From positions 1 to 64,000 of the forward strand of contig JNJQ01000014.1 of assembly GCA_000701725.1 (NCBI GenBank): a DNA stretch of 64,000 bases, read 5' to 3'. How positions within the stretch are numbered: the stretch's first letter is position 1; every line of letters begins with the position of its first letter. The notes under the pieces are model-generated. The model was not told the DNA's origin, did no database searches, and saw nothing but the letters and a program-made list of their open reading frames with translations. The translations under genes were made by a program, and so were the position numbers. Below are positions 169 to 16,021 of this stretch, piece after piece. The DNA comes from Erysipelotrichaceae bacterium NK3D112 (lineage in GTDB: Bacteria; Bacillota_I; Bacilli_A; Erysipelotrichales; Erysipelotrichaceae).

Positions 169-317
169 AGTTGCCTGATCTATAAGTTTTTCCTTCAGAT
201 CTTCGGATGTCATTAAGAGAATGACCATACCCGCGGCATCTTGTTTGAGTAATGAAAAATTTATGAAAATTATTTGAGGAAAATTTCAACATTTTGCAAA
301 TTATTACAGCAGATGCG

Positions 318-346
318 TTGTAAATGATTACACCCGATTTTATAAT
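318..346 (+). promoter_or_regulatory. Probable promoter of the opp operon
   Basis: TTGTAA (318-323) and TATAAT (341-346) are 17 bp apart, 55 bases upstream of oppB. The leader holds a small hairpin (ATCTGC at 357-362 with GCAGAT at 373-378). The rest of 170-400 is A+T-rich and shows no gene. Confidence 0.65.
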
Positions 347-400
347 GAAACATGTTATCTGCATGATGCATGGCAGATATGTGATTGGAAAGAGTATATT

Positions 401-1315
401 ATGGCAAAATATCTGGTTAAACGTATTCTGCTGGCTCTGCTCAGTATATTCCTGATCTGTATGATCACATTCTTCCTGATGAATGCCGTCCCGGGCGGAC
501 CGTTCAGCAGTGAAAAGGCGGTCAGTGCACAGGTAATGGCTGCGCTGGAAGCCAGGTTCAATCTCGATAAGCCGCTGTGGCAGCAGTTTATCATGTACAT
601 GAACAATATTCTTCATGGCGATTTCGGTATTTCCATGAAGACGGGAAGAGAGATTGCGGTCACCCTGAAATCCTGTTTCTCCGTCTCGGCCAAACTGGGC
701 GGAAGCGCCCTGATCGTTGCGATGATTCTGGGTATCATTTTCGGCTGTGTCGCGGCTCTTTACAGAAACCGTGTTCCTGACAGAATCATTGTCTTCATGA
801 CCACGCTGTTTACGGCAATGCCTTCCTTTGTGCTGGCAACGCTGCTGCTGCTTGTATTCTGCATTCAGCTGAAATGGTTCCCGGTCTGGGATGCCTCCAG
901 CAAGAGCTTCCTGCTTCCGGTCATTGCGCTGGCCGCATATCCCACCGCTTATATCACCCGTCTGACAAAGACGGCGATGCTCGACGCATTAAGCCAGGAC
1001 TATATCAGAACCGCAAGGGCGAAAGGTGTGCCGATGACAAGGGTTATTTTCAAGCATGCGCTCAGAAACGCCCTGATTCCTGTCATCACATATCTCGGAC
1101 CTGAACTCGCATACATTCTGACCGGTTCGCTTGTCATTGAAAACATCTTCACGATCGGCGGCCTTGGCCAGCAGTTTGTGCAGTCCATTAACAACCGTGA
1201 CTATTCCATGATCATGGGAACCACCATCTTCCTGGCGATCATCATGGTTTTCTGCAATCTGCTCAGTGACATCCTGTATAAGGTAGTCGATCCGAGAATC
1301 AAACTCGAAGCATAG
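401..1315 (+). CDS. oppB: Oligopeptide ABC transporter permease OppB
   Basis: Inner-membrane permease of an oligopeptide importer, 304 residues, the usual OppB length. The N-terminal signature MAKYLVKRILLALLSIFLI is typical of the family. About six hydrophobic segments follow, and the cytoplasmic EAA loop that docks on the ATPases lies near residues 199-215 (DYIRTARAKG). It is the first gene of a five-gene operon oppBCDFA and pairs with OppC to form the channel. The stop codon is TAG, so TAG is used as a genuine stop in this genome. The Shine-Dalgarno is weak (GGAAAGA). Confidence 0.93.
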   Translation: MAKYLVKRILLALLSIFLICMITFFLMNAVPGGPFSSEKAVSAQVMAALEARFNLDKPLWQQFIMYMNNILHGDFGISMKTGREIAVTLKSCFSVSAKLGGSALIVAMILGIIFGCVAALYRNRVPDRIIVFMTTLFTAMPSFVLATLLLLVFCIQLKWFPVWDASSKSFLLPVIALAAYPTAYITRLTKTAMLDALSQDYIRTARAKGVPMTRVIFKHALRNALIPVITYLGPELAYILTGSLVIENIFTIGGLGQQFVQSINNRDYSMIMGTTIFLAIIMVFCNLLSDILYKVVDPRIKLEA

Positions 1316-1332
1316 GAAAGGAGATCAAACAT

Positions 1333-2397
1333 ATGTCAGAAATCAATATGCCTAAAAAGAACCTCCTTTCCATGCAGATAGATCCTTCCGCATTCGAACC
1401 GGCAAGTGAGGAGGAAAAGCGTCAGGCGGACGTCATGAGCGAATCAACATCCTTCTTCAAGGACGGTATGCGCAAGCTCATGAAGAATCCGCTGGCGGTC
1501 GGCTCAATTATCGCCCTGGTGCTGATTGTGCTTCTGATTCTGATCGCCCCGAAGATTGTTCCTTACGGCTATGAGGAAATCATCAAAGTCGGCGGTTCCA
1601 AAGACAAGACAATCACCAATCTGGCACCGTTTGCCTGGAGTGAAAAGGAAACGGCTCTGATCGCTTCCGGCACAAAGCTGTTCCCGCATATCATGGGAAC
1701 CGACTCGCTTGGCCGTGATTACTTTATCAGAGTGATTTACGGAACCCGCGTTTCACTGACTGTCGGTCTGTTCGCAAGTATCCTCGTATTGATCATCGGT
1801 GTTCTCTATGGGGCTGTTTCCGGCTACCGCGGGGGCAGAACCGACATGATCATGATGAGAATTGTCGACATTATTTATTCACTGCCCGATGTTCTGATCA
1901 TTATCCTGCTGTCGGTCGTTCTGAACCAGACGCTGAATAAATCCAATCCGATTGTCAAACTGCTCGGTACGAACATGGTTGCGATCTTTATCGTCTTCGG
2001 TCTGCTCTACTGGGTCGGCATGGCAAGACTTGTAAGAGGCGAAGTGCTTAAGATCAAAAACAATGAGTACTTCCTGGCAGCCAAAGCCACGGGAGCTTCC
2101 AGCTGGCACATTATCAGAACGCATGTCATTCCCAACTGCATCAGCGTCATCATCATCACAACGGCGCTGCAGATTCCTTCATCAATCTTCACCGAGTCAT
2201 TCCTTTCCTTCATGGGAATGGGTGTCCAGGCACCGATGCCTTCGCTTGGCTCTTTGGCAAACAATGCCAGAGCCGGTCTGCAGAGCTATCCCTGGCAGCT
2301 GGTTTTCCCGGCGCTGATGATCGTTCTCATCGTTCTGGCATTCAATCTGCTCGGCGATGGTCTGCGTGATGCGTTTGACCCGAAACTCAGGAGGTAA
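1333..2397 (+). CDS. oppC: Oligopeptide ABC transporter permease OppC
   Basis: Second channel subunit of the oligopeptide importer, 354 residues. A cytoplasmic N-terminal extension of about 50 residues precedes the first membrane segment (near 55-75), as in the OppC_N/BPD_transp_1 architecture. A large extracytoplasmic loop follows, then the HMGTDSLGRDYF motif that is diagnostic for OppC/DppC, and the EAA loop EYFLAAKATG near residue 244. AAAGGAG lies 8-14 bases before the ATG. It is 17 bases after oppB and 3 bases before oppD, so it is co-transcribed. Confidence 0.94.
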   Translation: MSEINMPKKNLLSMQIDPSAFEPASEEEKRQADVMSESTSFFKDGMRKLMKNPLAVGSIIALVLIVLLILIAPKIVPYGYEEIIKVGGSKDKTITNLAPFAWSEKETALIASGTKLFPHIMGTDSLGRDYFIRVIYGTRVSLTVGLFASILVLIIGVLYGAVSGYRGGRTDMIMMRIVDIIYSLPDVLIIILLSVVLNQTLNKSNPIVKLLGTNMVAIFIVFGLLYWVGMARLVRGEVLKIKNNEYFLAAKATGASSWHIIRTHVIPNCISVIIITTALQIPSSIFTESFLSFMGMGVQAPMPSLGSLANNARAGLQSYPWQLVFPALMIVLIVLAFNLLGDGLRDAFDPKLRR

Positions 2398-2400
2398 CTT

Positions 2401-3432
2401 ATGGCTGTACTTGAACAGATACTTGAAGACGGTCAGGAACCTCTTCTCAAGGTGATTGACCTGCATACAAGCTTCACAACGGATAACGGCGAGGTCCAGG
2501 CTGTCAACGGTCTGAGCTTCAACCTGAATCCCGGAACCACACTCGGCATTGTCGGTGAATCCGGCTCGGGCAAATCGGTAACCGCTTATTCCATCATGAG
2601 AATTCTCGAATCCAACGGTCATGTGACCGGGGGAAAGATTCTCTTCAATGGCGAGGATATCGCTTCCTACACGGAAAAGCAGATGGCTGACTTCCGCGGC
2701 AACAAGATTTCAATTATCTTCCAGGACCCGATGACTTCACTCAATCCGGTCTATACCATCGGCAACCAGATTGTCGAGGCGATCATCCTGCACCAGAATG
2801 TCACAAAGGAGCAGGCGAAAGAAGAAGCCATTGAAATGCTGAAACAGGTCGGAATCAACGACGCGGAAAGACGTTTCAAACAGTATCCGCATGAACTCTC
2901 AGGCGGTATGAGACAGCGTGTCATGATTGCCATGGCGCTTGTCTCCAAGCCTTCCATCCTGATCGCGGATGAGCCCACAACCGCCCTTGATGTGACCATT
3001 CAGGCACAGATTCTCGAACTGATGCAGGAACTGCAGAAGAAATACCATATGGCAATCATCATTGTCACCCATGACCTTGGTGTCATTGCCCAGATGGCGG
3101 ATGAGATTGTCGTCATGTATGGCGGCCGGATCTGTGAAAGGGGAACTGCTGAAGACATCTTCTACAATCCCTGCCACGAATATACAAAAGGACTTCTGAA
3201 ATCCATTCCCAATGTGGACAACATGAAGGAAAAGCTGATTCCGATCGAAGGATCGCCGATCAACCTTCTGAACCTTCCCAAAGGATGCGCGTTCTGCGCA
3301 AGATGCGCGAAAGCGATGAAGATCTGCCTTGAGCAGGTGCCGCCGGAGCTGAGAATGCCGGACGGTCATCTGGCTTCCTGCTGGATGAATGTGAAAAACA
3401 ACAACTACATAGAAGTGGGGGCAGACGCATGA
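2401..3432 (+). CDS. oppD: Oligopeptide ABC transporter ATPase OppD
   Basis: Cytoplasmic ATPase of the Opp complex, 343 residues. Walker A GESGSGKS is near residue 52, the signature LSGGMRQR near 166, Walker B LIADEPTTALD near 185 and the switch His in VTHDLG. The C-terminal oligo_HPY extension with Cys motif GCAFCARC (near 295) is typical of Opp/Dpp ATPases, some of which carry a cluster-binding Cys set there. AGGAGG lies just before the start, inside the oppC end. It overlaps oppF by 4 bases (ATGA), implying coupled translation with its dimer partner. Confidence 0.94.
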   Translation: MAVLEQILEDGQEPLLKVIDLHTSFTTDNGEVQAVNGLSFNLNPGTTLGIVGESGSGKSVTAYSIMRILESNGHVTGGKILFNGEDIASYTEKQMADFRGNKISIIFQDPMTSLNPVYTIGNQIVEAIILHQNVTKEQAKEEAIEMLKQVGINDAERRFKQYPHELSGGMRQRVMIAMALVSKPSILIADEPTTALDVTIQAQILELMQELQKKYHMAIIIVTHDLGVIAQMADEIVVMYGGRICERGTAEDIFYNPCHEYTKGLLKSIPNVDNMKEKLIPIEGSPINLLNLPKGCAFCARCAKAMKICLEQVPPELRMPDGHLASCWMNVKNNNYIEVGADA

Positions 3433-4403
3433 GTACAGAAAACAAAAGCGAATACCTCGTTGAAGTAAAACATCTCAAACAGTACTTCCCGGTCAGAACG
3501 GGTTTCATGAAAACGATACCCCTCAAGGCTGTGGATGACGTCAGTTTTTCGATCAGACCCGGTGAGACACTCGGTCTGGTAGGTGAATCCGGCTGCGGCA
3601 AAACAACAGTCGGCAGAACACTGATGCATCTGTACAAGCCGACCGCCGGTGAGATTTATTTTGAGGGAAAACAGGTTACCGAGAAGAACATCGGTGAATT
3701 CCGCAAGGACATGCAGATGGTGTTCCAGGATCCCTATTCCTCACTTGATCCCAGAATGACAGTTGAAGACATCATCGGCGAGCCGCTTGATGTGCACAAG
3801 CTGTATTCCACAAAAGAAGAGCGCCGTCAGAAGGTTATGGATCTGATGAGCCTGGTCGGACTCAACGCTGAGCACGCAACCAGATATGTCCATGAATTCT
3901 CCGGCGGTCAGAGACAGAGAATCGGTATCGCCAGAGCGCTGGCTGTCAACCCGAAATTCATCGTCTGCGATGAACCGGTTTCCGCCCTTGACGTTTCCAT
4001 TCAGGCCCAGGTCATCAACATGTTTGAAGAGCTTCAGGAAAAGCTCGGTGTGGCATATCTGTTCATTGCCCATGATCTGCTGGTCGTCCACCACATTTCC
4101 GACCGGATCGCCGTTATGTACCTTGGCAGAATGGTTGAAATGGCCGACGCCGATGAACTGAATGAGAATCCGATCCATCCGTACACACTCTCGCTGCTGT
4201 CCGCGGTTCCGGTCCCTGATCCGAAAACCGCCAAGGCTTCGCAGAGAATTATCCTTGAGGGCGATGTACCAAGCCCGCTCAATATGCCTTCAGGCTGCGC
4301 GTTCCGCACCCGCTGCCGTTATGCGACAGAGCAGTGTGCAAAGGAATGCCCGGCTTTGACGGACAGAGGCAACGGCCATATGGTTGCCTGCTGGAATAAA
4401 TAA
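3429..4403 (+). CDS. oppF: Oligopeptide ABC transporter ATPase OppF
   Basis: Second ATPase of the importer, 324 residues, forming the heterodimer with OppD. Walker A GESGCGKTT is near residue 49, the signature FSGGQRQR near 156, Walker B CDEPVSALD near 178 and the C-terminal GCAFRTRC box near 288. The start overlaps the oppD stop. The oppA gene follows after 28 bases with a strong AAGGAGG. Confidence 0.94.
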   Translation: MSTENKSEYLVEVKHLKQYFPVRTGFMKTIPLKAVDDVSFSIRPGETLGLVGESGCGKTTVGRTLMHLYKPTAGEIYFEGKQVTEKNIGEFRKDMQMVFQDPYSSLDPRMTVEDIIGEPLDVHKLYSTKEERRQKVMDLMSLVGLNAEHATRYVHEFSGGQRQRIGIARALAVNPKFIVCDEPVSALDVSIQAQVINMFEELQEKLGVAYLFIAHDLLVVHHISDRIAVMYLGRMVEMADADELNENPIHPYTLSLLSAVPVPDPKTAKASQRIILEGDVPSPLNMPSGCAFRTRCRYATEQCAKECPALTDRGNGHMVACWNK

Positions 4404-4431
4404 GGTTTCAAACTCATAAGGAGGGAAAAAA

Positions 4432-6207
4432 ATGAGTATGAAAAAGATGATGGCCTCCGTCCTTGCAATCGCTCTTCTGGCTGGATGTTCTTCTTCTACA
4501 CCGGCAGACGGTTCTTCGGACGCAGAAGGTCAGAGTGCTGAAGCATTCGAATCAACACTCTATCCGACACCGGAAGGCGTCACTTACACAGCTTCTTCCA
4601 CAAACGCTGCCGCTCCTGACTGGGCAAAGTATGACGAGCTCGTCAGCCAGATCAGAACAACTCTTGACATGGATGAGCGTGTCAGTCTGCTCCACCAGGC
4701 TGAAGATATCCTGATGGGCACAGCTGCTGTTATCCCGCTGTATTACTACAATGACATCTTCATGCAGAAGACAGATGTTGACGGAATCTATTCCAACGTC
4801 TTCGGCAACAAGTTCTTCATGTTCGCAACTTCCCCGCGTGATGTCCTGAAGGTGAACCTGGCTTCCGAACCGGATAAGATTGACCCGGCTCTGAACTCCT
4901 CTGTTGACGGCGCATGCCTTGATGTCAACCTGTTCTCCGGTCTCTACACATATGACAAGGACGGCAACCTCGCACCGGATCTGCTTGATCATGAGAATCC
5001 TTATGAGATTTCTGAAGACGGTACAGAATACACATTCCATCTGCAGGAAGGTCTGAAGTGGTCCGACGGCGATCCGCTGACAATGAATGACTTCGCTTAT
5101 GCATGGAACCGTGCAATTGATCCCGCAACAGCCGCTGACTATGAGTATATGTATGCTCCGATCGCCGGCTATGAAGACGGTGCTCTGCAGATTGAAGTTG
5201 TTGATGATTACACAATGACAGTCAAGCTCAGCGCTCCGACTGCTTACTTCCTCGACCTCATGGCTTTCCCGGCATTCTTCCCGGTCAAGCAGAGTGAAGT
5301 TGAAGGCGCTGAAGGCTTCGCTGAGAACCCCGGCGCATGGGCAACTGAAGCAGGCTTCGTTTCCAACGGTGCTTACACACTGGAATCCTGGAAGCACGAA
5401 GAGTCCATGGTCTTCAAGAAGAACCCGAACTATTACAGAGCTGACGAAGTCACAATCGAAGAAATCGACTTCATGCTTTCCGCTGATGATACAGCAATCT
5501 TCGCTGCATTCAATGCCGGCAACCTCGATTTCGCTGACTCCGTTCCGACAAACGAAATCGCTTCCGTCAAGGACAGCCCTGAATTCCATGTCATTGACAA
5601 CCTCGGCACATACTATGCATGCTTCAACGTCAACAGCCCTGTATTCGAAGGCAAGACAGTTGATCAGGCAATCGCTATGAGAAAGGCATTCTCCCTGCTC
5701 ATCGACCGTCAGTACATCTGCGACACAGTCGGTCAGACCGGCCAGATCGCTGCTACTTCCTACATCCCTGCAGGTATGGCAGACGGCAACGGCGGCGTCT
5801 TCAAGACAGCCGGTGCCTGGAACTATCCAAACGGTTCTGACGGATACTATGATGCGGAAGTCAGTGAAACAGCAGTTGAAGAAGCCCGCAAGCTCCTTGA
5901 ATTCGCAGGCTACACATTCGATGACAGCGGCAAGCTTTCCGCTGACACACCGATCAACATCACATATCTGACAAATGATTCCTCAGGACACGTTGCAGCA
6001 GCTGAATCCATGCAGCAGGACTTCTCCGAGGTCGGCATCAACATGGAAATCAAGACTGAAGACTGGAACGTATTCCTTGATGACCGTAAGAACGGCAACT
6101 ATGACTTCGCCCGTGAAGGCTGGCTCGCCGACTTCAACGACCCGATCAACATGATCGAAATGTTTGCTTCCTACTCCGGAAACAACGATCCGCAGTTCGG
6201 CAAATAA
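4432..6207 (+). CDS. oppA: Oligopeptide-binding lipoprotein OppA, apparently circularly permuted
   Basis: Substrate-binding lipoprotein of the importer (SBP_bac_5 family), 591 residues. It has a signal peptide with lipobox LLAGC (Cys19) and a Ser/Ala/Gly-rich linker to about residue 57. The order of the rest is odd. Residues about 58-134 (PDWAKYDEL..., AEDILMG, IPLYYYNDI, GNKFFMFAT) match what normally forms the C-terminal end of OppA. The usual mature N-terminus (LKVNLASEPDKIDPAL, DGNLAPDL, LKWSDGDPLT) starts only near residue 138. The protein stops at NNDPQFGK, a loop that in ordinary OppA is followed by the WxxYD segment found here at the front. All parts are present once, so this is a permutation rather than a truncation. 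A terminator follows at once. Confidence 0.88.
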   Translation: MSMKKMMASVLAIALLAGCSSSTPADGSSDAEGQSAEAFESTLYPTPEGVTYTASSTNAAAPDWAKYDELVSQIRTTLDMDERVSLLHQAEDILMGTAAVIPLYYYNDIFMQKTDVDGIYSNVFGNKFFMFATSPRDVLKVNLASEPDKIDPALNSSVDGACLDVNLFSGLYTYDKDGNLAPDLLDHENPYEISEDGTEYTFHLQEGLKWSDGDPLTMNDFAYAWNRAIDPATAADYEYMYAPIAGYEDGALQIEVVDDYTMTVKLSAPTAYFLDLMAFPAFFPVKQSEVEGAEGFAENPGAWATEAGFVSNGAYTLESWKHEESMVFKKNPNYYRADEVTIEEIDFMLSADDTAIFAAFNAGNLDFADSVPTNEIASVKDSPEFHVIDNLGTYYACFNVNSPVFEGKTVDQAIAMRKAFSLLIDRQYICDTVGQTGQIAATSYIPAGMADGNGGVFKTAGAWNYPNGSDGYYDAEVSETAVEEARKLLEFAGYTFDDSGKLSADTPINITYLTNDSSGHVAAAESMQQDFSEVGINMEIKTEDWNVFLDDRKNGNYDFAREGWLADFNDPINMIEMFASYSGNNDPQFGK

Positions 6208-6230
6208 GATCTGATCAGAAAATGAAAAAG

Positions 6231-6269
6231 ACTCCGGTGAAAACATATGGCTCGCCGGAGCCTTTTTTC
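6231..6269 (+). terminator. Terminator of the opp operon
   Basis: CTCCGG (6232-6237) pairs with CCGGAG (6255-6260), with a TG/CG extension, and is followed by CCTTTTTTC. Confidence 0.8.
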
Positions 6270-6305
6270 TGCAAAGATCATCATAAAGAAGAAATCAGAA
6301 TCATT

Positions 6306-6335
6306 AAAAACGGGACGGCTGTTCAAAGCCGCCCC
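6306..6335 (-). terminator. Terminator of the xylBA operon
   Basis: The 9-bp stem 6312-6320/6327-6335 has one mismatch and a 6-base loop. On the minus strand it is followed by a T run (A run at 6306-6310). Confidence 0.8.
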
Positions 6336-6363
6336 GAAATTGTTTGTGGATTCACCCGGTGAA

Positions 6364-7677
6364 TTATCTGAAGAGAATGCTGTTGAAGACGTTTTCCAGA
6401 TATTCCTGTCTGCCGCTGCCCGGCAGTTCAGGTGCGCCGAGCTTTTCCGCATAAGCGGAGAGTTCTTCCAGAGTCGCCTGATTCGCGCGGATCTTACGGC
6501 CCAGTTCGCCATCCCATGAAGCGTATCTGTCTTTGATGAACTGATCGATGCGTCCGTCTTCAATCAGCTCTGCCGCCTTGATCAGGCCAAGCGCGAAGGT
6601 ATCCATACCCAGGATGAAGGCATAGAACATGTCTTCGTATGTGTAGCTGGGTCTTCTGTTTTTGGAGTCGAAGTTGAAGCCGCCGGTCAGACCGCCGTTT
6701 TTCAGAACTTCATACATGCATCTGGTTGCCTCATAGACATCGAAGGGGAATTCATCGGTGTCCCAGCCCAGCAGTGTGTCGCCCTGGTTGGCGTCGATGG
6801 AGCCGAGCATGCCGTTGATTGCGCTGATGCGCAGATCGTGCTGGAAGGTGTGGCCGGCAAGGGTCGCATGGTTGGCTTCGATGTTCATCTTGAAGTCCTT
6901 ATCCAGACCGTACTGGCGCAAAAAGCCGATTGCGGTTGCCGCATCGAAGTCATACTGATGCTTCATCGGTTCCTTCGGTTTGGGCTCAATATAGAAGTCG
7001 CCGGTAAAGCCGATGGATCTGCCGTAGTCAACCGCCATATGCATGAGAGATGCGATGTTTTCCTGTTCCAGTTTCACATCGGTATTGAGCAGGGTTTCAT
7101 AACCTTCACGTCCGCCCCAGAAGACATATCCGCGTCCGCCGAGCTTGACCGTCAGATCCAGAGCCTTTTTGATCTGGGCTGCCGCAAATGCGTAGACATC
7201 AACACTGTTGGTGGAACCTGCACCGTTCATGAAACGCGGGTTGGAGAACATGTTCGCGGTTCCCCAGAGGCACTTGATATCTGTGCCTTCCATCTTTTCC
7301 AGAATGTAGTCGCTGATCTCATCCAGACGTCTGTTTGTCTCCTTGATATCATCGGCTTCCGGAACCAGGTCGACATCATGGAAGCAGAAGTATTTGATTC
7401 CGAGCTTCTGCATGAATTCGAAGCCGGCATCAACCTTTGCCTTTGCGTGTTCCATTGTGCCTTTTTCGCATCCGAATGACTTGTCGGCTGTGTCACGTCC
7501 GAACATGTCTGTGCCGGCAGCGCCGAGGTTGTGCCACCATGCCATGGCGAAGGGCAGATGCTCACTCATCTTTTTGCCCATGATCACACGGTCGGCATCG
7601 TAATATCTGAATGCCAGGGGATTCTTTGATTCAGGTCCTTCAAACGGAATGACGGGGATGTTTTTGAATACAGTCAT
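6364..7677 (-). CDS. xylA: Xylose isomerase
   Basis: Converts D-xylose to D-xylulose in the cytoplasm. 437 residues, the length of class II xylose isomerases. The recognisable motifs, in order, are FHDVDL (His-Asp of ring opening), [14 protein letters not shown], the metal-ligand stretch [10 protein letters not shown], and [15 protein letters not shown] with further metal ligands. GGAGGAG stands just before the ATG. It lies 18 bases downstream of xylB on the same strand, so the transcript is xylB-xylA, ending at the terminator at 6306-6335. Regulation by the divergent AraC protein is likely. Confidence 0.96.
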
Positions 7678-7695
7678 GATTTTCTCCTCCTCTTT

Positions 7696-9156
7696 TTACA
7701 GTTCTTTGAATATCTCTTTGAGAGCCGGATAGATTTTCCGGAATGTCCAGTATTTTTTCTCATAGCGCGCGGCGGTTTCGGGATCAGGCAATACGGATTC
7801 CCGGACGGCTGCGAAGCTGTCCGCGCACTCCTGAATGGTGGCGAATTTACCGGATGCGGTCATGGCAAGCAAAGCGCCGCCATAGCCCGGTCCTTCCTCC
7901 GTGAGCGGAATATCAATGCGGATATTGAGCACGTTTGCGATGATTCTGCGCCATAATGCGGATCTGGCACCTCCGCCGCAAAGGGTGGAAGATGTGATTT
8001 TCTGATGTGCGCCGGCTGCTTCGAGGCAATCGCGGAAGGCGAAGGCAACACCTTCAAGAACCGCAAGATCCATCTCCGCTTTTGTGGTGGTCATGTCCAT
8101 GCCGACAAAGCAGGCGCGTGCTTCTGGATCATTGAGCGGGCTGCGCTCTCCCATCAGATAGGGCAGGAAATAAACGGTCCCGTTTCCGAGTTGATCCTCT
8201 TTGATGGAACTCAGAATTCCCGCATAGTCTTTGGTATCAAGAATATCCTCCAGGAACCACTTGTTTGCCGAAGCGGCGGAGAGGATGCATCCCATCAGAT
8301 GATATCTGCCGCTGGCATGGGCGAAGGAATGCAGAGAATTGGCCGGATCAACACTGAATTCATCATTTGCGATGAAGATGGTTCCGCTGGTTCCAAGCGA
8401 AATATTGCATGTGCCATCCGCCAAAGTGTTTGTGCCGATGGCAGCTGCCGCGTTGTCGCCCGCACCGGCGGCTACAATGACATCCTTGAGGAACGGCAGC
8501 TCCTCATTGTTCACAACACCGACAGGTTCATAGCTTTCAAACAGCTGCGGCAGCCACTCTTCCTGAACCGAGCAGATTCTGCACATCTGTTCGCTCCAGC
8601 ACTTGTGTTCCACATCCAGCAGCAATGTACCGGATGCATCGCTGTAATCGGTGCAGTGCACGCCGGTCAGTTTGAAATTGATATAGTCTTTCGGCAGCAT
8701 GATCTTTCTGATCTTCATGAAGTTGCCGGGCTCATTTTCTCTGAGCCATAAAAGTTTAGGCGCCGTGAAACCGGCAAATGCGATGTTTGCGGTGCAGCCG
8801 GAAAGAATATCCTTTCCGACTGTGTTGTTGAGCCATTCGGTCTGCTGTGCTGTCCGGCTGTCATTCCATAAAATACACGGGCGGATCACCTCATCATTTT
8901 CATCCAAAATGACCAGGCCGTGCATCTGACCGCCGCAGCCGATCCCTTTGATCATTGCGGGATCGATTCCTGCCGTCAGTTCCTTCAGACCTTTGACCGT
9001 CTGTTCCCACCAGTCCTGCGGATTCTGCTGTGACCAGCCGGGATTGGGAAATGAAATCGGGTAATCCTTTGAAATTGTTTTTTCGACTTTTCCGTGATCG
9101 TCAACCAGAAGAAGCTTGACAGAAGTCGTACCGAGATCAATGCCGATATAGAACAT
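7696..9156 (-). CDS. xylB: Xylulokinase
   Basis: Phosphorylates D-xylulose to xylulose 5-phosphate for the pentose phosphate or phosphoketolase route. 486 residues, FGGY family. The N-terminal phosphate-binding motif GIDLGTTSVK is followed by GIGCGGQMHGLV and LWNDSRT, which are typical of xylulokinases. The second domain has SLGTSGTIF and CGGGARSALWRRI. GGAGGAAG lies before the start. First gene of xylBA and divergent from the AraC regulator at 9279. Confidence 0.95.
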   Translation of the reverse strand: MFYIGIDLGTTSVKLLLVDDHGKVEKTISKDYPISFPNPGWSQQNPQDWWEQTVKGLKELTAGIDPAMIKGIGCGGQMHGLVILDENDEVIRPCILWNDSRTAQQTEWLNNTVGKDILSGCTANIAFAGFTAPKLLWLRENEPGNFMKIRKIMLPKDYINFKLTGVHCTDYSDASGTLLLDVEHKCWSEQMCRICSVQEEWLPQLFESYEPVGVVNNEELPFLKDVIVAAGAGDNAAAAIGTNTLADGTCNISLGTSGTIFIANDEFSVDPANSLHSFAHASGRYHLMGCILSAASANKWFLEDILDTKDYAGILSSIKEDQLGNGTVYFLPYLMGERSPLNDPEARACFVGMDMTTTKAEMDLAVLEGVAFAFRDCLEAAGAHQKITSSTLCGGGARSALWRRIIANVLNIRIDIPLTEEGPGYGGALLAMTASGKFATIQECADSFAAVRESVLPDPETAARYEKKYWTFRKIYPALKEIFKEL

Positions 9157-9278
9157 CTCTTCCTCCGTATTTAATATCTGTTTTTATTCTAAAAAACACA
9201 GAGTGCCTGAGCGATGGTATTATTGAGATAACCGATCGACAATCCTGCGATTTTTGTGTAAGAGGAAAAACGATTATT

Positions 9279-10202
9279 ATGATTGAATATGAAATCGTCA
9301 GACATGACAGAATGCGCGGAGTCAGGGTACTGATCAACTCCATCCGCATCCGCTCTCTGCATATGCATCATGATACGGAACTTCTGTATGTGATCCATGG
9401 CAGCGGCAGTGTCATCATCCGCAATTACCCGTACCATCTGGACCAGGATGACATTTTTGTGATCAATGCCTATGAACCGCACGAGATTCTTTCGGACGGA
9501 AATGACTTCACACTGATCATCATCCAGTTCTCCGGACATTTTCTGCAGGAGTATTGTTCACTGAACCGCATGCTGTTTTCAAACGGCCGTCTGAGCGAAC
9601 AGATGGACAAAGAAGATCTGGCAGATCTGAAAAGGGATATTTTTGATCTTTCCGTTTCCTATCTGGAAGGCGGTGAATATTTCAGTCTGTTATGTGTGAG
9701 CAGACTTTCCGCAATCCTGTATTCACTGATGAAACATACAGATATGATTTTATTGAGTGAAAGCGAGTATGCGAAACGGCGCAAAACCGAAAAACGGATG
9801 ATGCGCATCAGTGAATATATTGAAATGAATTATCAGGAGCCGCTTCGTCTTCGGGATCTGGCCGAGAAGGAGGGCGTTACCGAAACGCATCTTTCCCATT
9901 TCATCAGGCAGGAGTTCGGAATCAGTTTCCAGGAATATCTCCGCAATAAAAGGCTGGAATGCGCGGTGCGCATGATTCATACAAACCGCACGCTCTGCGA
10001 GATTTCCGATGCCTGCGGCTTTTCGGAACTCAAATATATGACAAAGGCATTCCGTGAAGCATTCCATATGACGCCGGCCCAATACCGTGCGCTTGCGGCA
10101 CCGGCTGTTCATCATGCGGGCAGCTCGGACAGCACGGAATACATTTATCCAGCCAAAGAGGCACTGGCGCTTCTCAAAGAAACCGCATCACTGTATAAGT
10201 GA
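9279..10202 (+). CDS. AraC-family regulator with cupin sensor domain
   Basis: Transcription factor of 307 residues. Residues about 1-140 form a cupin sugar-binding half (LHMHHDTELLYVIHGSG, then DDIFVINAYEPHEI). Residues about 180-275 are a double helix-turn-helix AraC domain (LRDLAEKEGVTETHLSHFIRQEFG, then FSELKYMTKAFREAFHMTPAQYR). It is transcribed away from xylBA across a 122-base gap, so it is the likely xylose activator. No clear consensus promoter is visible in that gap. AAGAGGAAAA precedes the ATG. Confidence 0.88.
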   Translation: MIEYEIVRHDRMRGVRVLINSIRIRSLHMHHDTELLYVIHGSGSVIIRNYPYHLDQDDIFVINAYEPHEILSDGNDFTLIIIQFSGHFLQEYCSLNRMLFSNGRLSEQMDKEDLADLKRDIFDLSVSYLEGGEYFSLLCVSRLSAILYSLMKHTDMILLSESEYAKRRKTEKRMMRISEYIEMNYQEPLRLRDLAEKEGVTETHLSHFIRQEFGISFQEYLRNKRLECAVRMIHTNRTLCEISDACGFSELKYMTKAFREAFHMTPAQYRALAAPAVHHAGSSDSTEYIYPAKEALALLKETASLYK

Positions 10203-10254
10203 ACCATTCCGCAGTGAAAAAGTGTGAAACGCATCGCATCATCCGGCATCAGAG

Positions 10255-10285
10255 ACGGTCTGCACTTATGGCGGATCGTTTTTTT
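10255..10285 (+). terminator. Terminator of the araC-type gene
   Basis: 9-bp stem with two G-U pairs, 10255-10263 with 10271-10279, then seven T. Confidence 0.65.
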
Positions 10286-10300
10286 CTTTTTCTTCAAAAA

Positions 10301-10456
10301 TGTGTGACCGGATCACCAAAGAATCTGTGTATGAAGGTGAAAGGGCAAAACAAACAGACCCGGACAGAAAAAAAGATTTCAAAAAGATGTGACCAGGCAC
10401 AATCAAAACCTGTGTATGAAAGTGAAAGGCAAAGAAAAAGCCAAAGGAGAAAGAAA
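10301..10456 (+). repeat. Leader block shared by both cystatin-like genes, with internal direct repeats
   Basis: The roughly 150 bases before this gene recur, nearly identical, before the second cystatin-like gene (15523-15673). Each block contains two related units about 80-85 bases apart. Each unit has TGTGACC (10303 and 10388) and, about 15 bases on, CTGTGTATGAARGTGAAAGG (10325 and 10410). No good promoter hexamers are obvious inside. The block may be a promoter or RNA leader that was duplicated with the gene. Confidence 0.6.
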
Positions 10457-10804
10457 ATGTTGAAATCAATGATCGCAGGCGCAGCGGTAATCGCCATGTT
10501 AACAGGAGCAGCCATGAACAATACAGCCAAAACAGAACAGACCATCGTCGGCGGATGGGAAAAGACAGAGGAGACAGTCATCAATGATGACGCAATGGCA
10601 ATCTTCGACGAAGCCACCGAAAAGCTGATCGGTGTCAATTATGAGGCCATCGAGCTGATTGAGACACAGCTGGTCAACGGAACCAACTACAAGTTCCGCG
10701 CAGAAAGCCAGGTTGTCTATCCGGGAGCCGAGAAGAAGGAAGTCATCATCACCATCCACAAGGCACTGGACGGCACCGTCACAATCCTTGACATCGAAGG
10801 ATAA
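10457..10804 (+). CDS. Small secreted cystatin/stefin-like protein, copy 1
   Basis: 115 residues from the ATG preceded by AAAGGAGAAAG; a longer upstream frame is rejected. Residues 1-24 look like a signal peptide (MLKSMIAGAAVIAMLTGAA). The rest reads like a stefin/cystatin: a Gly-Gly near the mature N-terminus (32-33), a helix (about 43-58), the QxVxG loop as QLVNG (71-75) running into GTNYKF, and a Pro-Gly turn (89-90) between the last strands. In known cystatins these three sites enter the cleft of papain-like proteases. A secreted cysteine-protease inhibitor is inferred, not shown. Copy 2 at 15674 differs at four residues. Confidence 0.65.
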   Translation: MLKSMIAGAAVIAMLTGAAMNNTAKTEQTIVGGWEKTEETVINDDAMAIFDEATEKLIGVNYEAIELIETQLVNGTNYKFRAESQVVYPGAEKKEVIITIHKALDGTVTILDIEG

Positions 10805-10832
10805 CAGACACAAAAGCAGCTGATTCGGCGTG

Positions 10833-10868
10833 CATGCACACCGGAACCATGTGTGCATGATGTATAAT
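10833..10868 (+). promoter_or_regulatory. Dyad and TATAAT before the sigma-factor gene
   Basis: A perfect 9-bp inverted repeat CATGCACAC/GTGTGCATG (10833-10841, 10851-10859) is followed by TATAAT (10863-10868), only 7 bases before the sigma ATG. No T run follows the dyad, so it looks more like an operator than a terminator. If TATAAT is a real -10, the mRNA would be leaderless, so this reading is tentative. Confidence 0.35.
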
Positions 10869-10875
10869 CGGAGAT

Positions 10876-11436
10876 ATGGAAGACTTTGAAATCGTTGAAA
10901 TGTACTGGGACAGGAATGAGAATGCCATCACCCAGACGGACAGAAAATACGGGAAATACTGCAGAAAGATCGCTTACAGCATCCTGTTTGACAGAGAGGA
11001 TACAGAGGAGTGCGTGAATGATACCTGGCTGCAGACATGGAACTCGATTCCTCCCCACCGTCCGGAGAGATTAAGCACATATCTCGGAAAAATCTGCCGC
11101 AATATTTCCATCAATTTATTCGAAAAGCTGAGCGCGGACAAGCGCGGCGGTACGGAAACGGACGCATGCCTGGATGAAATGGCCGAAGTGGTCGGTCAGA
11201 GCTCGGATGTGGAGGAACAGCTGGATCTGTCCGTCCTGACGGATGTGATCAACGGTTTCCTGAAACAGTGCGAGAAACAGGCAAGGACTGTGTTCGTGCA
11301 GAGATACTGGTACATGCTCAATGTCAAAGAGATCGCCAAAGAAAACGGAATGAGCGAAAGCAATGTCAAAATGACATTGATGAGAACCAGGGAGAAACTG
11401 AAAGAATACCTCATTGAGGAGGGATACAGCATATGA
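10876..11436 (+). CDS. ECF-type RNA polymerase sigma factor
   Basis: 186 residues. Sigma-70 region 2 occupies about residues 15-80 (RKIAYSILFDREDTEECVNDTWLQTWNSIPPHRP). Region 4 occupies about 120-180 (RTVFVQRYWYMLNVKEIAKENGMSESNVKMTL). This is the ECF architecture without regions 1 and 3. GGAG lies at the start. It overlaps the next gene by 4 bases, the usual sigma/anti-sigma arrangement. The target promoters are not evident. Confidence 0.9.
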   Translation: MEDFEIVEMYWDRNENAITQTDRKYGKYCRKIAYSILFDREDTEECVNDTWLQTWNSIPPHRPERLSTYLGKICRNISINLFEKLSADKRGGTETDACLDEMAEVVGQSSDVEEQLDLSVLTDVINGFLKQCEKQARTVFVQRYWYMLNVKEIAKENGMSESNVKMTLMRTREKLKEYLIEEGYSI

Positions 11437-12044
11437 AAAAAGAAACAATTCTGAAAGCGATGACAGACATCAATGATGACTTCATCCTTGAGGCTGCCCC
11501 GAAGGGGTATATGCCGAAAGAGAAAAAGGCCTTCAGCTGGTTCAATATGAAGGTGCTCGCAGGCGCCTTCGCGGTGCTGTTAATGGCAATTCTTCTGCCG
11601 CAGGTGCTGAAGCCGGGCCAGAATGTCCCGGGCGGCAGCGGCAATGTGGAGCTGGTGAGACCGTATGAGACGGTTGAATCCATGGCTCAGGCGGAGCAGA
11701 TAACCGGATTCTCAATTGACTATCCTGACACATTCCTGGAATGGACAAGTTCAGAAATCAACGTTTATAACAAGGAAATGATTGATGTCGCCTACACCGA
11801 TGCAAATGAGCAGATCATGATGCATGTGCGCAAGGCGGAAGGTGAAGAGGATATCAGCGGAGACTTCAACGCTTACGGATTCGAGACGGAAATCAACGGC
11901 GGAAACTACAAGGTTACAGTAAAAGGCAATGACGGACGTGTGCATCTGATGACCTGGATCAGGAGCGGATACAGCTACTCCATCAGCCTCACCGAAGGAA
12001 TCAGCCTGGATGATGCGGCACGGATTGTCAGCGACATTCATTGA
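11433..12044 (+). CDS. Membrane-anchored anti-sigma-like protein
   Basis: 203 residues: a short cytoplasmic N-terminus (about 1-36), one membrane segment (about 38-56, MKVLAGAFAVLLMAILLP) and an extracellular domain ending YSISLTEGISLDDAARIVSDI. The domain resembles the DUF4367 type found downstream of ECF sigma genes. The 4-base overlap with the sigma gene suggests that it holds the sigma factor at the membrane and senses something outside. No zinc-finger anti-sigma motif (HxxxCxxC) is present. The family assignment is from resemblance only. Confidence 0.65.
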   Translation: MKKETILKAMTDINDDFILEAAPKGYMPKEKKAFSWFNMKVLAGAFAVLLMAILLPQVLKPGQNVPGGSGNVELVRPYETVESMAQAEQITGFSIDYPDTFLEWTSSEINVYNKEMIDVAYTDANEQIMMHVRKAEGEEDISGDFNAYGFETEINGGNYKVTVKGNDGRVHLMTWIRSGYSYSISLTEGISLDDAARIVSDIH

Positions 12045-12055
12045 TTGAACTCTTT

Positions 12056-12107
12056 CATAACGGACAGGGCACCCGGAAGGGTGCCTTGTCTGTGTTATGA
12101 CCGTTTT
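12056..12107 (+). terminator. Long hairpin terminator after the anti-sigma gene
   Basis: A long stem runs from CATAAC (12056-12061) to GTTATG (12094-12099), with inner GGCACCC/GGGTGCC around a GGAA loop. CCGTTTTAT follows. Confidence 0.7.
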
Positions 12108-12174
12108 ATAACCACATTCCGCGCAAAACATCCGTGAGCGGTCCGGACATGCGGATATGTTCTTAAAAAATAAT

Positions 12175-12241
12175 TTGACACATCCTCTTGACAGGAATAT
12201 ATAAGCGTATTACTGTACTAGTGTATTAAGTGATTAATACA
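12175..12241 (+). promoter_or_regulatory. Promoter and dyad operator of the GntR-ABC operon
   Basis: TTGACA (12175-12180), 17 bp, TATATA (12198-12203). A second TTGACA begins at 12188. Directly downstream is a perfect 8-bp inverted repeat TGTATTAA-GTGA-TTAATACA (12222-12241), placed where a bound repressor would block transcription. YtrA-type GntR repressors commonly autoregulate in this way. Confidence 0.7.
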
Positions 12242-12264
12242 GTGATACACAAAGGGAGGGATAT

Positions 12265-12642
12265 ATGAGCTGGACATTCAAATCCGATCAGCCGATCTAC
12301 ATCCAGATCGTTGAACGAATCGAAATCCGGATTGTCAAAGGTGAATATCCGCCCGGCTCAAAACTTCCTTCCGTGCGTGAGCTTGCCCTGGAGGCAGGCG
12401 TCAATCCGAACACTGTGCAAAGAGCGTATGCGGACCTGGAGCAGAACGGATTTGTGCGTACGGAAAGGACAAGCGGGAAATATGTCACCGATGATGCGGA
12501 AATGCTCATCTCGCTGAGGAAATCACTCAGCAGCAAATACATCGAAGAGCTCTTTGTCAGAATGACAGAACTGGGCTATTCAGAAAAAGAAATCATCGAA
12601 GCCGTAAGGGCTGCGAAAGGAGAAACTGATGAATGTGCTTGA
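12265..12642 (+). CDS. GntR-family (YtrA-type) transcriptional repressor
   Basis: 125 residues. An N-terminal winged helix occupies about 10-75 (IYIQIVERIEIRIVKGEYPPGSKLPSVRELA, NPNTVQRAYADLEQNGFV), followed by a short helical tail. This short form is typical of YtrA regulators that precede ABC exporters. GGGAGGG lies before the ATG. It overlaps the ATPase gene by 14 bases. Likely autoregulated through the dyad at 12222-12241. Confidence 0.9.
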   Translation: MSWTFKSDQPIYIQIVERIEIRIVKGEYPPGSKLPSVRELALEAGVNPNTVQRAYADLEQNGFVRTERTSGKYVTDDAEMLISLRKSLSSKYIEELFVRMTELGYSEKEIIEAVRAAKGETDECA

Positions 12643-13333
12643 ATGCAGGAATCTGACCAAAAACTACGGTTCAAAGACCGCTCTGGATTCCGTCAATATC
12701 ACACTGGAAAGCGGCCGCATCACCGGTCTGCTGGGCCCAAACGGCTCCGGCAAGACCACACTGATCAAACTTGCATGCCGTCTGCTGGTGCCCACACAGG
12801 GCGATATCAGCATCTGCGGCAGTCAGCCCGGCGTGGAAACAAAGAAAATCGTTTCCTATCTTCCGGACAGAAATTATCTGCCGGAATGGATGAACTGCCG
12901 TGATCTGATTTATCTGTATGAGGATTTCTATGAGGATTTCGATACACAAAGGGCAGTCGATATGATCCGCTCACTGGACATCGATCACAAAATCCCGATG
13001 AAGAAAATGTCCAAGGGCACAAAGGAAAAGCTTCAGCTGATCCTGACCATGAGCAGAAGGGCAAAGCTGTATCTGCTTGATGAGCCGATTGCCGGTGTCG
13101 ATCCCGCCGCAAGAGACTATATCCTTCATACCATTCTGTCCAATTACGATGAGGATGCGTCCATTCTCATCAGCACTCATCTGATCGCCGATGTCGAGTC
13201 GGTGCTCGATGAAGCGATTTTCCTGAAAGATGGAAAAGTGATTCTCCAGGACTCCGTTGATTCCATCCGCGAGAAGTCCGGAAAGAGTCTGGATGAACAC
13301 TTCCGGGAGGTATTCAGATGCTGGGAAAGTTAA
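12629..13333 (+). CDS. ABC transporter ATP-binding protein
   Basis: 234 residues. Walker A is GPNGSGKTT near residue 35 and Walker B is LYLLDEPIAGVDP near 148. The signature is degenerate: MSKGTKEKLQL replaces the usual LSGGQ, as often seen in the YtrB/BcrA-like exporter class. It overlaps the repressor (14 bases) and the membrane gene (16 bases), so all three are one unit. The exported substrate is unknown; cell-envelope stress or peptide export is common for this class. Confidence 0.88.
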   Translation: MNVLECRNLTKNYGSKTALDSVNITLESGRITGLLGPNGSGKTTLIKLACRLLVPTQGDISICGSQPGVETKKIVSYLPDRNYLPEWMNCRDLIYLYEDFYEDFDTQRAVDMIRSLDIDHKIPMKKMSKGTKEKLQLILTMSRRAKLYLLDEPIAGVDPAARDYILHTILSNYDEDASILISTHLIADVESVLDEAIFLKDGKVILQDSVDSIREKSGKSLDEHFREVFRCWES

Positions 13334-14052
13334 TGAAATATGATCTGAAAGCAGCGTTCCGCTCATTCGCACCGCTGTATCTCGCATTGCTTGGCATGTC
13401 GCTGATCATCGGTCTGTTCGGCCGCTTCAATGCCGAGGGAAATTCCGTACTCGCCTTTATCGCGATTGTCTATGGCGTGACAATGATTATCTGCTGGGTG
13501 ATTCCGATTGTCATCCTGACACTGCGCTTTAAGAAAAACCTGCTTGAGGATGAAGGATATCTCAGCTTCTCCCTGCCGGTTTCCACCCTGGAACATATCG
13601 TGGCTAAAGTGCTTTCCGCCCTGGTGATTACGGTTGTGTGCGCGCTGGTTGTGGTGCTTTCCTTCCTGATCATCGGTCTGATCTCGGCTGACTTTGAGCA
13701 GTTGCGCAATGCCATGCAGCAGATCATGTCCGCATTCAATCAGATCTTTGATGCGAATCTGCTGCCGCAGATCTTCAAGGCGGTGGTGATTATGGTCCTT
13801 GGTTCCGTGGAGCTTATTTCGCAGATCTATCTGGCTCTGGCAATCGGTCATCTGTTCAAAGATCATGAGAGACTGGCAGCGGTCGGCGCATTCATCGGCA
13901 TCAATGTCATCCTGAGTCTTATCATGAATGTGATTCATCTGCCCAACATGCTGGAATCCGCAGGTCTGTATTATGTCTATTCAATCGCCCTGACCGCGAT
14001 CTTCACATCGCTGACCTGGCTGATTCTGGACCGCAATCTGAATCTCGGCTGA
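13318..14052 (+). CDS. ABC transporter membrane subunit
   Basis: 244 residues with about six hydrophobic segments (near 19-36, 43-66, 98-120, 150-175, 185-205 and 215-235), the size of ABC-2-like exporter permeases. It partners the upstream ATPase. The sequence has no motif that names a substrate. It ends 38 bases before a shared bidirectional terminator. Confidence 0.75.
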   Translation: MLGKLMKYDLKAAFRSFAPLYLALLGMSLIIGLFGRFNAEGNSVLAFIAIVYGVTMIICWVIPIVILTLRFKKNLLEDEGYLSFSLPVSTLEHIVAKVLSALVITVVCALVVVLSFLIIGLISADFEQLRNAMQQIMSAFNQIFDANLLPQIFKAVVIMVLGSVELISQIYLALAIGHLFKDHERLAAVGAFIGINVILSLIMNVIHLPNMLESAGLYYVYSIALTAIFTSLTWLILDRNLNLG

Positions 14053-15522: not shown

Positions 15523-15673
15523 TCTGTGACCTGATCATCAGAGAATCTGTATATGAAGGTGAAAGGGCAAAAGAAAGCCCGGACAGAAAAAGATTTCATA
15601 AAAATGTGACCAGGCACAATCAAAACCTGTGTATGAAAGTGAAAGGCAAAGAAAAAGCCAAAGGAGAAATAAA
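15523..15673 (+). repeat. Second copy of the cystatin-like gene's leader block
   Basis: Near-identical to the block before the first cystatin-like gene. It has the same two TGTGACC units (15525 and 15605) and the same GTGAAAGG stretches. Both duplicated blocks begin just after a terminator, so each probably carries its own signals. Confidence 0.6.
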
Positions 15674-16021
15674 ATGTTGAAATCAATGATCGCAGGCGCA
15701 GCGGTAATCGCCATGTTAACAGGAGCAGCCATGAACAATACAGCAAAAACAGAAGAGACGATTGTCGGCGGATGGGAAAAGACAGAAGAAACAGTCATCA
15801 ATGATGACGCAAAGGCAATCTTCGACGAAGCCACCGAAAAGCTGATCGGTGTCAATTATGAGGCCATTGAACTGATCGAGACACAGCTGGTCAACGGAAC
15901 CAACTACAAGTTCCGCGCAGAGAGTCAGGTTGTTTATCCGGGAGCCGAGAAGAAGGAAGCCATCATCACCATTCATAAGGCACTGGATGGAACCGTCACA
16001 ATCCTCGACATCGAAGCATAA
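15674..16021 (+). CDS. Small secreted cystatin/stefin-like protein, copy 2
   Basis: 115 residues, same ATG context (AAAGGAGAAAT) as copy 1. It differs from copy 1 at four positions by my reading: Q28E, M47K, V96A and G115A. The signal peptide, Gly-Gly, QLVNG loop and Pro-Gly turn are all kept. DNA identity is also very high and extends about 150 bases upstream, so the duplication is recent or is maintained by gene conversion. The copies lie 5.2 kb apart in the same orientation, flanking the sigma, ABC and MerR genes. Confidence 0.65.
   Translation: MLKSMIAGAAVIAMLTGAAMNNTAKTEETIVGGWEKTEETVINDDAKAIFDEATEKLIGVNYEAIELIETQLVNGTNYKFRAESQVVYPGAEKKEAIITIHKALDGTVTILDIEA

Follow-up and report, generated by a model that had tools for sequence, protein, structure and literature searches.

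We consider it very probable that the gene at positions 4432–6207 of the window (the whole stretch of DNA analysed here, 64,000 nucleotides of contig JNJQ01000014.1 from Erysipelotrichaceae bacterium NK3D112) encodes a permuted OppA lipoprotein of the neighbouring oppBCDF importer, and that its subfamily has undergone in-place permutation at least nine times, with breaks in three domain III loops. One permuted substrate-binding protein (SBP) is already known by structure; what is surprising is that permutation has happened repeatedly and in place, at three different loops of lobe 2.

Chain order of the window protein

The oppB, oppC, oppD and oppF genes lie directly upstream of the SBP gene, as assigned with NCBIfam and Pfam. 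The features of the operon and of the permuted gene are as follows.

401–1315 (+): oppB, permease of the same operon (Pfam PF00528, PF19300; best NCBIfam model Opp3B, below cut-off)
1333–2397 (+): oppC, permease (Pfam PF00528, OppC_N PF12911)
2401–3432 (+): oppD, ATPase (Pfam ABC_tran, oligo_HPY; best NCBIfam model OppD, below cut-off)
3429–4403 (+): oppF, ATPase (Pfam ABC_tran, oligo_HPY; best NCBIfam model OppF, below cut-off)
4418–4425 (+): Shine-Dalgarno-like aaggaggg, 6 bases 5' of the ATG (read in the sequence)
4432–6207 (+): circularly permuted oppA-like SBP gene, 591 aa (ORF translation, Pfam, phmmer)
4432–4485 (+): predicted signal peptide, residues 1–18 (translation read by eye)
4486–4488 (+): lipobox cysteine, residue 19 (LLAGC, residues 15–19; translation read by eye)
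4489–4602 (+): linker, residues 20–57 (low pLDDT at 1–36 in the model; variable in the alignment)
4603–4833 (+): old C-terminal piece, residues 58–134 (phmmer, comparison with the ordinary relative L006, profile score)
4834–4842 (+): join of the old termini, residues 135–137, within 131–138 (phmmer, alignment)
4843–6204 (+): old N-terminus to break site gamma, residues 138–591, end SGNNDPQFGK (phmmer, L006, alignment)

The window SBP thus reads signal peptide, lipobox, linker, old C-terminus, and then old N-terminus to near the old end. Residues 136–586 correspond to residues 19–449 of B. subtilis OppA (8are), and residues 66–130 to 8are 456–520 (phmmer against the PDB). For DppE (8ay0), residues 132–582 correspond to 17–441 and residues 63–125 to 447–511, the latter, short stretch having an independent E value of 3.7e-9. 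B. subtilis OppA and DppE are therefore homologous to nearly the whole window chain, in two stretches, but they have the ordinary order with both termini in domain I, whereas the window SBP is permuted. Residues 58–134 scored 78.9 bits against a profile of ordinary-order OppA, at profile positions 444–512; shuffled versions of the piece gave any match in 140 of 200 cases, the best at 4.3 bits. In the ordinary relative L006 the parts stand in the opposite order, 47–498 and then 503–575, with 4 residues between them. Pfam PF00496 matched the window SBP a single time, at residues 189–585 (277 bits against a cut-off of 32.4). Against the NCBIfam OppA equivalog NF011684, the window protein scored 232 bits, the cut-off being 947, and its order departs from that of ordinary OppA, in which the domains run I-II-I-III-I with both termini in domain I.

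These results support the natural circular permutation of a class C SBP that had been proposed from the letters alone in a preliminary description of this DNA. That description had named a lack of homology between the N-terminal piece and the OppA C-terminus as fatal to the proposal; the phmmer matches and the profile score, set against the shuffles, establish the homology. It had placed the old N-terminus at about residue 138, which agrees with a first old N-terminal residue at about 137–138, and the chain end, NNDPQFGK, where the C-terminal piece normally continues; in L006 the body indeed ends at the same place and the piece follows. Each part occurs once, as it had stated, with one PF00496 match and two phmmer stretches in reversed order. 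The old C-terminal piece does lie near the N-terminus, but it starts at about residue 58–63, after a linker of about 40 residues, and not directly after the lipobox. Residues 1–18 are presumably a signal peptide, to judge from their pattern, and the lipobox with its cysteine follows, as read by eye.

Beyond the operon, genes for xylose isomerase (6364–7677, − strand) and xylulokinase (7696–9156, − strand), both above the NCBIfam cut-offs, run convergent to it, and at 9279 an AraC-like regulator, identified by eye, points in the other direction. Further along lie two copies of a small protein about 5 kb apart (10412–10804 and 15629–16021, both + strand), which are 95% identical over 130 residues and carry an N-terminal signal-like stretch; no Pfam match was found for this pair.

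Conservation and break sites

The same gamma order, named after the break site of the window SBP, occurs in 33 non-identical sequences that belong to Erysipelotrichaceae, Lachnospiraceae, other Clostridia and Treponemataceae. Orthologues with the same order, for which the preliminary description had suggested a search, include 20 genome-contig loci from several projects (L033–L052), each in a single frame; they come from Erysipelotrichaceae, Lachnospiraceae, other clostridial metagenome-assembled genomes, ‘Candidatus Treponema caballi’ and the cultured Porcincola intestinalis (L047). With the near-copies L033, L036, L038 and L046 set aside, 19 gamma-type proteins (the window SBP and 18 others at 55–91% identity to it) can be aligned over their full length, and SGNNDxQFGK/R closes every one of them, followed in L005 by one extra residue. 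Compared with six relatives, the window gene has dN/dS ratios of 0.07–0.18 over its whole length and 0 to 0.19 within the moved piece; it is under purifying selection.

These observations bear on an assembly artefact, in which tandem oppA copies would have been collapsed or misjoined and which the preliminary description had named as one finding that would refute its reading. The window genome does consist of 95 contigs, and most of the sequences come from metagenome assemblies. However, the same order recurs in independent assemblies, 20 loci including that of the isolate Porcincola intestinalis, dN/dS is low, and the window genome holds 3 PF00496 proteins in all, with one close match to the window SBP. 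An artefact is already refuted at the level of the clade, and for the window gene its probability is negligible.

Other permuted types were sought by an order scan of three pieces in 167 loci and with a profile of 65 ordinary proteins. The 54 permuted ORFs found fall into nine groups and use three break sites, alpha, beta and gamma, each located in domain III (lobe 2).

Main gamma clade: 33 non-identical permuted ORFs
Second gamma group: 3 ORFs (G054, G1378, G1382)
Beta group CP2: 6 ORFs, one split over two contigs
Alpha, G668: 1 ORF
Beta, G001: 1 ORF
Alpha, five genomes: G004, G1330, G1337, G1340, G1347
Alpha, three genomes of genus g16
Alpha, G003: 1 ORF
Beta, G1243: 1 ORF

Site alpha lies at profile position 272–278, just before the NVRKA..iDR helix, site beta at 349–358, before the next strand, and site gamma at 442–444 in most rows; the N-terminal match of the window SBP itself begins at profile position 431, inside its linker. 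At every break, one piece stops no more than a few residues from where the other begins. As read manually off the phmmer alignment, alpha, beta and gamma correspond approximately to residues 281–287, 357/358 and 438–443 of E. coli-type OppA, and domain III spans residues 270–486 in the OppA of entry 1B58, according to the available part of PMC6305025. Because all three sites lie inside domain III, each permutation found shifts the new terminus to lobe 2. In a scan with a doubled profile, L054, L003, L114, L089, L028 and L010 were ordinary or partial, with a doubled score not above the single one, and were left uncounted.

The tally of 54 ORFs comes mostly from searches begun from permuted queries and does not give rates. 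A less biased count, made by hand with an ordinary-order profile in 60 genomes of the window's genus (E ≤ 1e-60), gave, among the matches listed, 12 permuted and 84 ordinary ORFs among 96 complete SBP ORFs, and 2 further ORFs cut by contig ends; among these matches a permuted ORF was present in 12 of the 60 genomes. Permuted SBPs are scarcer in broad draws: 2 of 392 genomes in the window's phylum carried a collinear permuted SBP (E ≤ 1e-80), as did 1 of 398 in the phylum of Porcincola (E ≤ 1e-90), not counting G668 with its alpha protein. Among 195 genomes of the T. caballi family, 7 had permuted SBPs.

Separate origins and in-place exchange

With the order restored in silico, SBP trees of 143, 145 and 41 rows set the permuted groups apart, each among ordinary proteins. 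The 143-row tree excludes L094, which is cut by a contig end; the 145-row tree holds the 154 of 219 rows kept after near-copies of at least 93% were dropped, minus nine ordinary rows below 300 bits; the rows of the 41-row tree were chosen by hand. The oppBCDF proteins encoded next to the SBP gave a tree of their own (44 loci, 1331 columns), independent of the SBP, and it agrees for the groups that it includes. For G003 and G1243 the placement comes from the SBP trees alone, and the G1243 row has a long branch.

In AU tests, for which the groups were named after the trees had been seen, one clade of all permuted rows was rejected (p = 3.8e-7), as were both gamma groups as one (p = 5e-45). In a second set, the two alpha groups as one (p = 2.7e-22), alpha and beta as one (p = 3.9e-60) and all nine rows as one (p = 1e-40) were likewise rejected. 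A clade of CP2 beta with G668 alpha was not rejected (p = 0.263); the two are counted as separate events because their break sites differ. These results indicate that the permutation appears in at least nine separate lineages among proteins of ordinary order, as judged from the SBP trees, the oppBCDF tree and the AU tests. The preliminary description had called such a permutation rare, which is wrong for the OppA family in these bacteria.

The opposite direction of change also has to be weighed. Two ordinary-order lineages, G030/G035 (L217) and G475 (L218), nest in the main gamma clade in both the SBP and the oppBCDF trees, in the latter at starred nodes, and the ordinary L006/L007 and L112 also fall inside the permuted clade in the SBP trees. 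The nesting of L217 and L218 suggests a return to the ordinary order. If such returns had been many, one or a few ancient permutations might account for the distribution in place of nine gains, and all of these nested ordinary proteins would fit that account. It is, however, very improbable: the break sites are of three different kinds, the AU tests reject both the single permuted clade and the three groups of the second tree as one, and even one return is unproven, since the main gamma clade held together without the two ordinary lineages was not rejected (p = 0.224). Separate gains are therefore the reading adopted here.

Wherever the flank suffices, permuted and ordinary orthologues occupy the same operon slot, with the SBP gene either after oppBCDF or before it; as far as the flanks reach, no second SBP gene was found in tandem with a permuted one. 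The closest pair consists of the permuted L210 (G001) and the ordinary L212 (G022), whose proteins are 84.3% identical once re-ordered. In L210, the upstream region with the signal peptide (2823–2987) matches 6848–7010 of L212, segment MC (3063–3542) matches 8124–8603, segment N (3552–4577) matches 7083–8108, and the downstream region (4618–10003) matches 8644–13975. These matches leave unaccounted for only some 15 bases between the two segments in the ordinary gene. The promoter, signal peptide and flanks of L210 are thus common to it and its ordinary orthologue, and the difference between the two is a clean swap of two adjacent gene segments. A comparison of L210 with L211 at the DNA level also gave an in-place swap, and four further pairs of permuted and ordinary genes showed swapped blocks with collinear flanks as far as the loci reach.

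The same pair speaks to a chimeric origin, in which the moved piece would derive from a different oppA gene. For the window clade a close ordinary orthologue was not found and the piece is not traceable at the DNA level, which leaves room for such an origin. In L210, however, the moved segment and the rest are identical to the same ordinary orthologue in 80.8% and 81.3% of bases, respectively, within the same flanks, and we regard a chimera as improbable compared with an exchange within one gene.

As for the route, the preliminary description had proposed a tandem duplication followed by partial loss, with the signal peptide kept or recaptured. A kept signal peptide is what the L210 pair displays; the duplication with partial loss is neither demonstrated nor contradicted, an in-place exchange being what is seen. 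Duplication and fission-fusion are general routes to circular permutation, with intermediates documented for DNA methyltransferases, in the available text of PMC3320104. Unlike in those models, no fused-tandem or split intermediate was found among the loci, the closest pair showing an in-place swap, and a fused-tandem intermediate of the NMCNMC type was absent among the orders found in the piece and profile scans.

A separate observation concerns L172 (G589, 211–3585), a 1125-aa ORF that was considered as a fused tandem oppA. It instead consists of a large extra N-terminal domain, putatively BMP/Med-like, joined to one complete ordinary OppA.

Fold, tether and significance

The window SBP is most likely the peptide-binding lipoprotein of the adjacent oppBCDF importer, acting like OppA. 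Its chain is a natural circular permutation in which the old N- and C-termini, which are neighbours in domain I of an ordinary OppA, have become joined, and new termini have opened in the domain III loop of site gamma. In the proposed mechanism, the N-terminal signal peptide would direct export and Cys19 would be lipidated; the tether would then hang from lobe 2 instead of lobe 1, and the chain would fold to the usual two lobes and may close on a peptide between them. In the subfamily, permutations at sites alpha, beta and gamma have arisen in place, with the signal peptide and operon kept.

An AlphaFold2 model from the 19-row alignment (pLDDT 82.2, pTM 0.79) has pLDDT below 50 only at residues 1–36, 565–568 and 583–590, and mostly 78–94 in the moved piece. 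Its best Foldseek match was B. subtilis OppA 8are_A (TM 0.70 by target length), to which VIA-align fitted 412 residues at an rmsd of 3.2 (Z 28.9); both programs follow chain order, and these values test residues ~131–591 and not the position of the moved piece 58–134. The model has a two-lobed OppA-like fold over residues 135–584, the part that the comparison covers. A model of the beta CP2 type, built from five sequences only, gave pLDDT 46.2 and pTM 0.39. Two residues, W564 and D567, do not vary among the 19 permuted proteins; matched by motif, they may correspond to the W and D by which AliD holds the N-terminus of the peptide, as described in the accessible part of PMC11192437.

The moved piece might instead complete a neighbouring molecule, giving domain-swapped assemblies of chains that do not close on themselves. 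The join of the old termini is short, and the relative AliC was crystallised as a lobe-swapped dimer, according to the same part of PMC11192437. Nevertheless, the ordinary termini of OppA-type proteins lie close together in domain I, as the available text of PMC10924461 has it, a distance that a short join can span within a single chain, and the AlphaFold2 model is confident over the join. Domain swapping is accordingly unlikely, and we favour a chain that would close on itself.

Lipid anchoring was considered as the reason for the permutation and was not adopted, since several members of the main clade, including that of Porcincola, seem to be without a lipobox. By a crude pattern the lipobox is absent in 10 of 29 gamma rows, about a third, so relocation of a lipid anchor cannot explain the clade as a whole. 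Six Gram-positive permuted SBPs (L042, L045, L047, L049, L050 and L051) have type I-like signal peptides without the lipobox cysteine.

The usual account of a natural circular permutation is of one old event whose steps can no longer be traced. In this one family there are at least nine events, one of them between 84%-identical orthologues with intact flanks. The permutation is thus a recurring evolutionary event and not a freak accident, and the before-and-after pairs let its mechanism, cost and benefit be studied. A practical consequence is that family models will mis-score permuted SBPs, and tools built on a single order will drop or mis-align them.

The permuted SBP with a crystal structure is TpMglB-2 (Tp0684) of Treponema pallidum, classed as ‘Type Ic / Cluster Bc’ in the available part of PMC4990184, to which the following statements on this protein also refer. 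Like the window SBP, it is a natural circular permutation of a membrane-tethered ABC-importer SBP, and its relatives occur in treponemes and in Gram-positive bacteria of the gut, hosts of the kinds that also carry the permuted OppA. It differs in its fold class, being a Cluster B protein that binds sugar; the window SBP matches OppA-type Cluster C chains and not the Cluster B fold with the Bc strand order. In TpMglB-2 the permuted end shows poor similarity in sequence, and another gene may be its source, whereas the moved part of OppA is clearly homologous. Three break sites and repeated origins further distinguish the permuted OppA from it. Our literature search, in the partial texts it covered, found no permuted OppA or Cluster C SBP described in print. 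The guess of Brautigam et al. (PMC4990184, same part) that SBP topology changes with membrane tethering becomes testable.

Tentatively, and with somewhat less than even confidence, we suggest that OppA-type SBP genes of gut Bacillota and treponemes may be repeatedly permuted by a local, near-lossless and reversible segment exchange that always moves the tether from lobe 1 to any of three lobe 2 loops. If so, this would point to an unnamed DNA mechanism or to a shared selective pressure, such as one on tether position or on the folding order of the lobes, and the same driver perhaps gave rise to TpMglB-2 in similar hosts.
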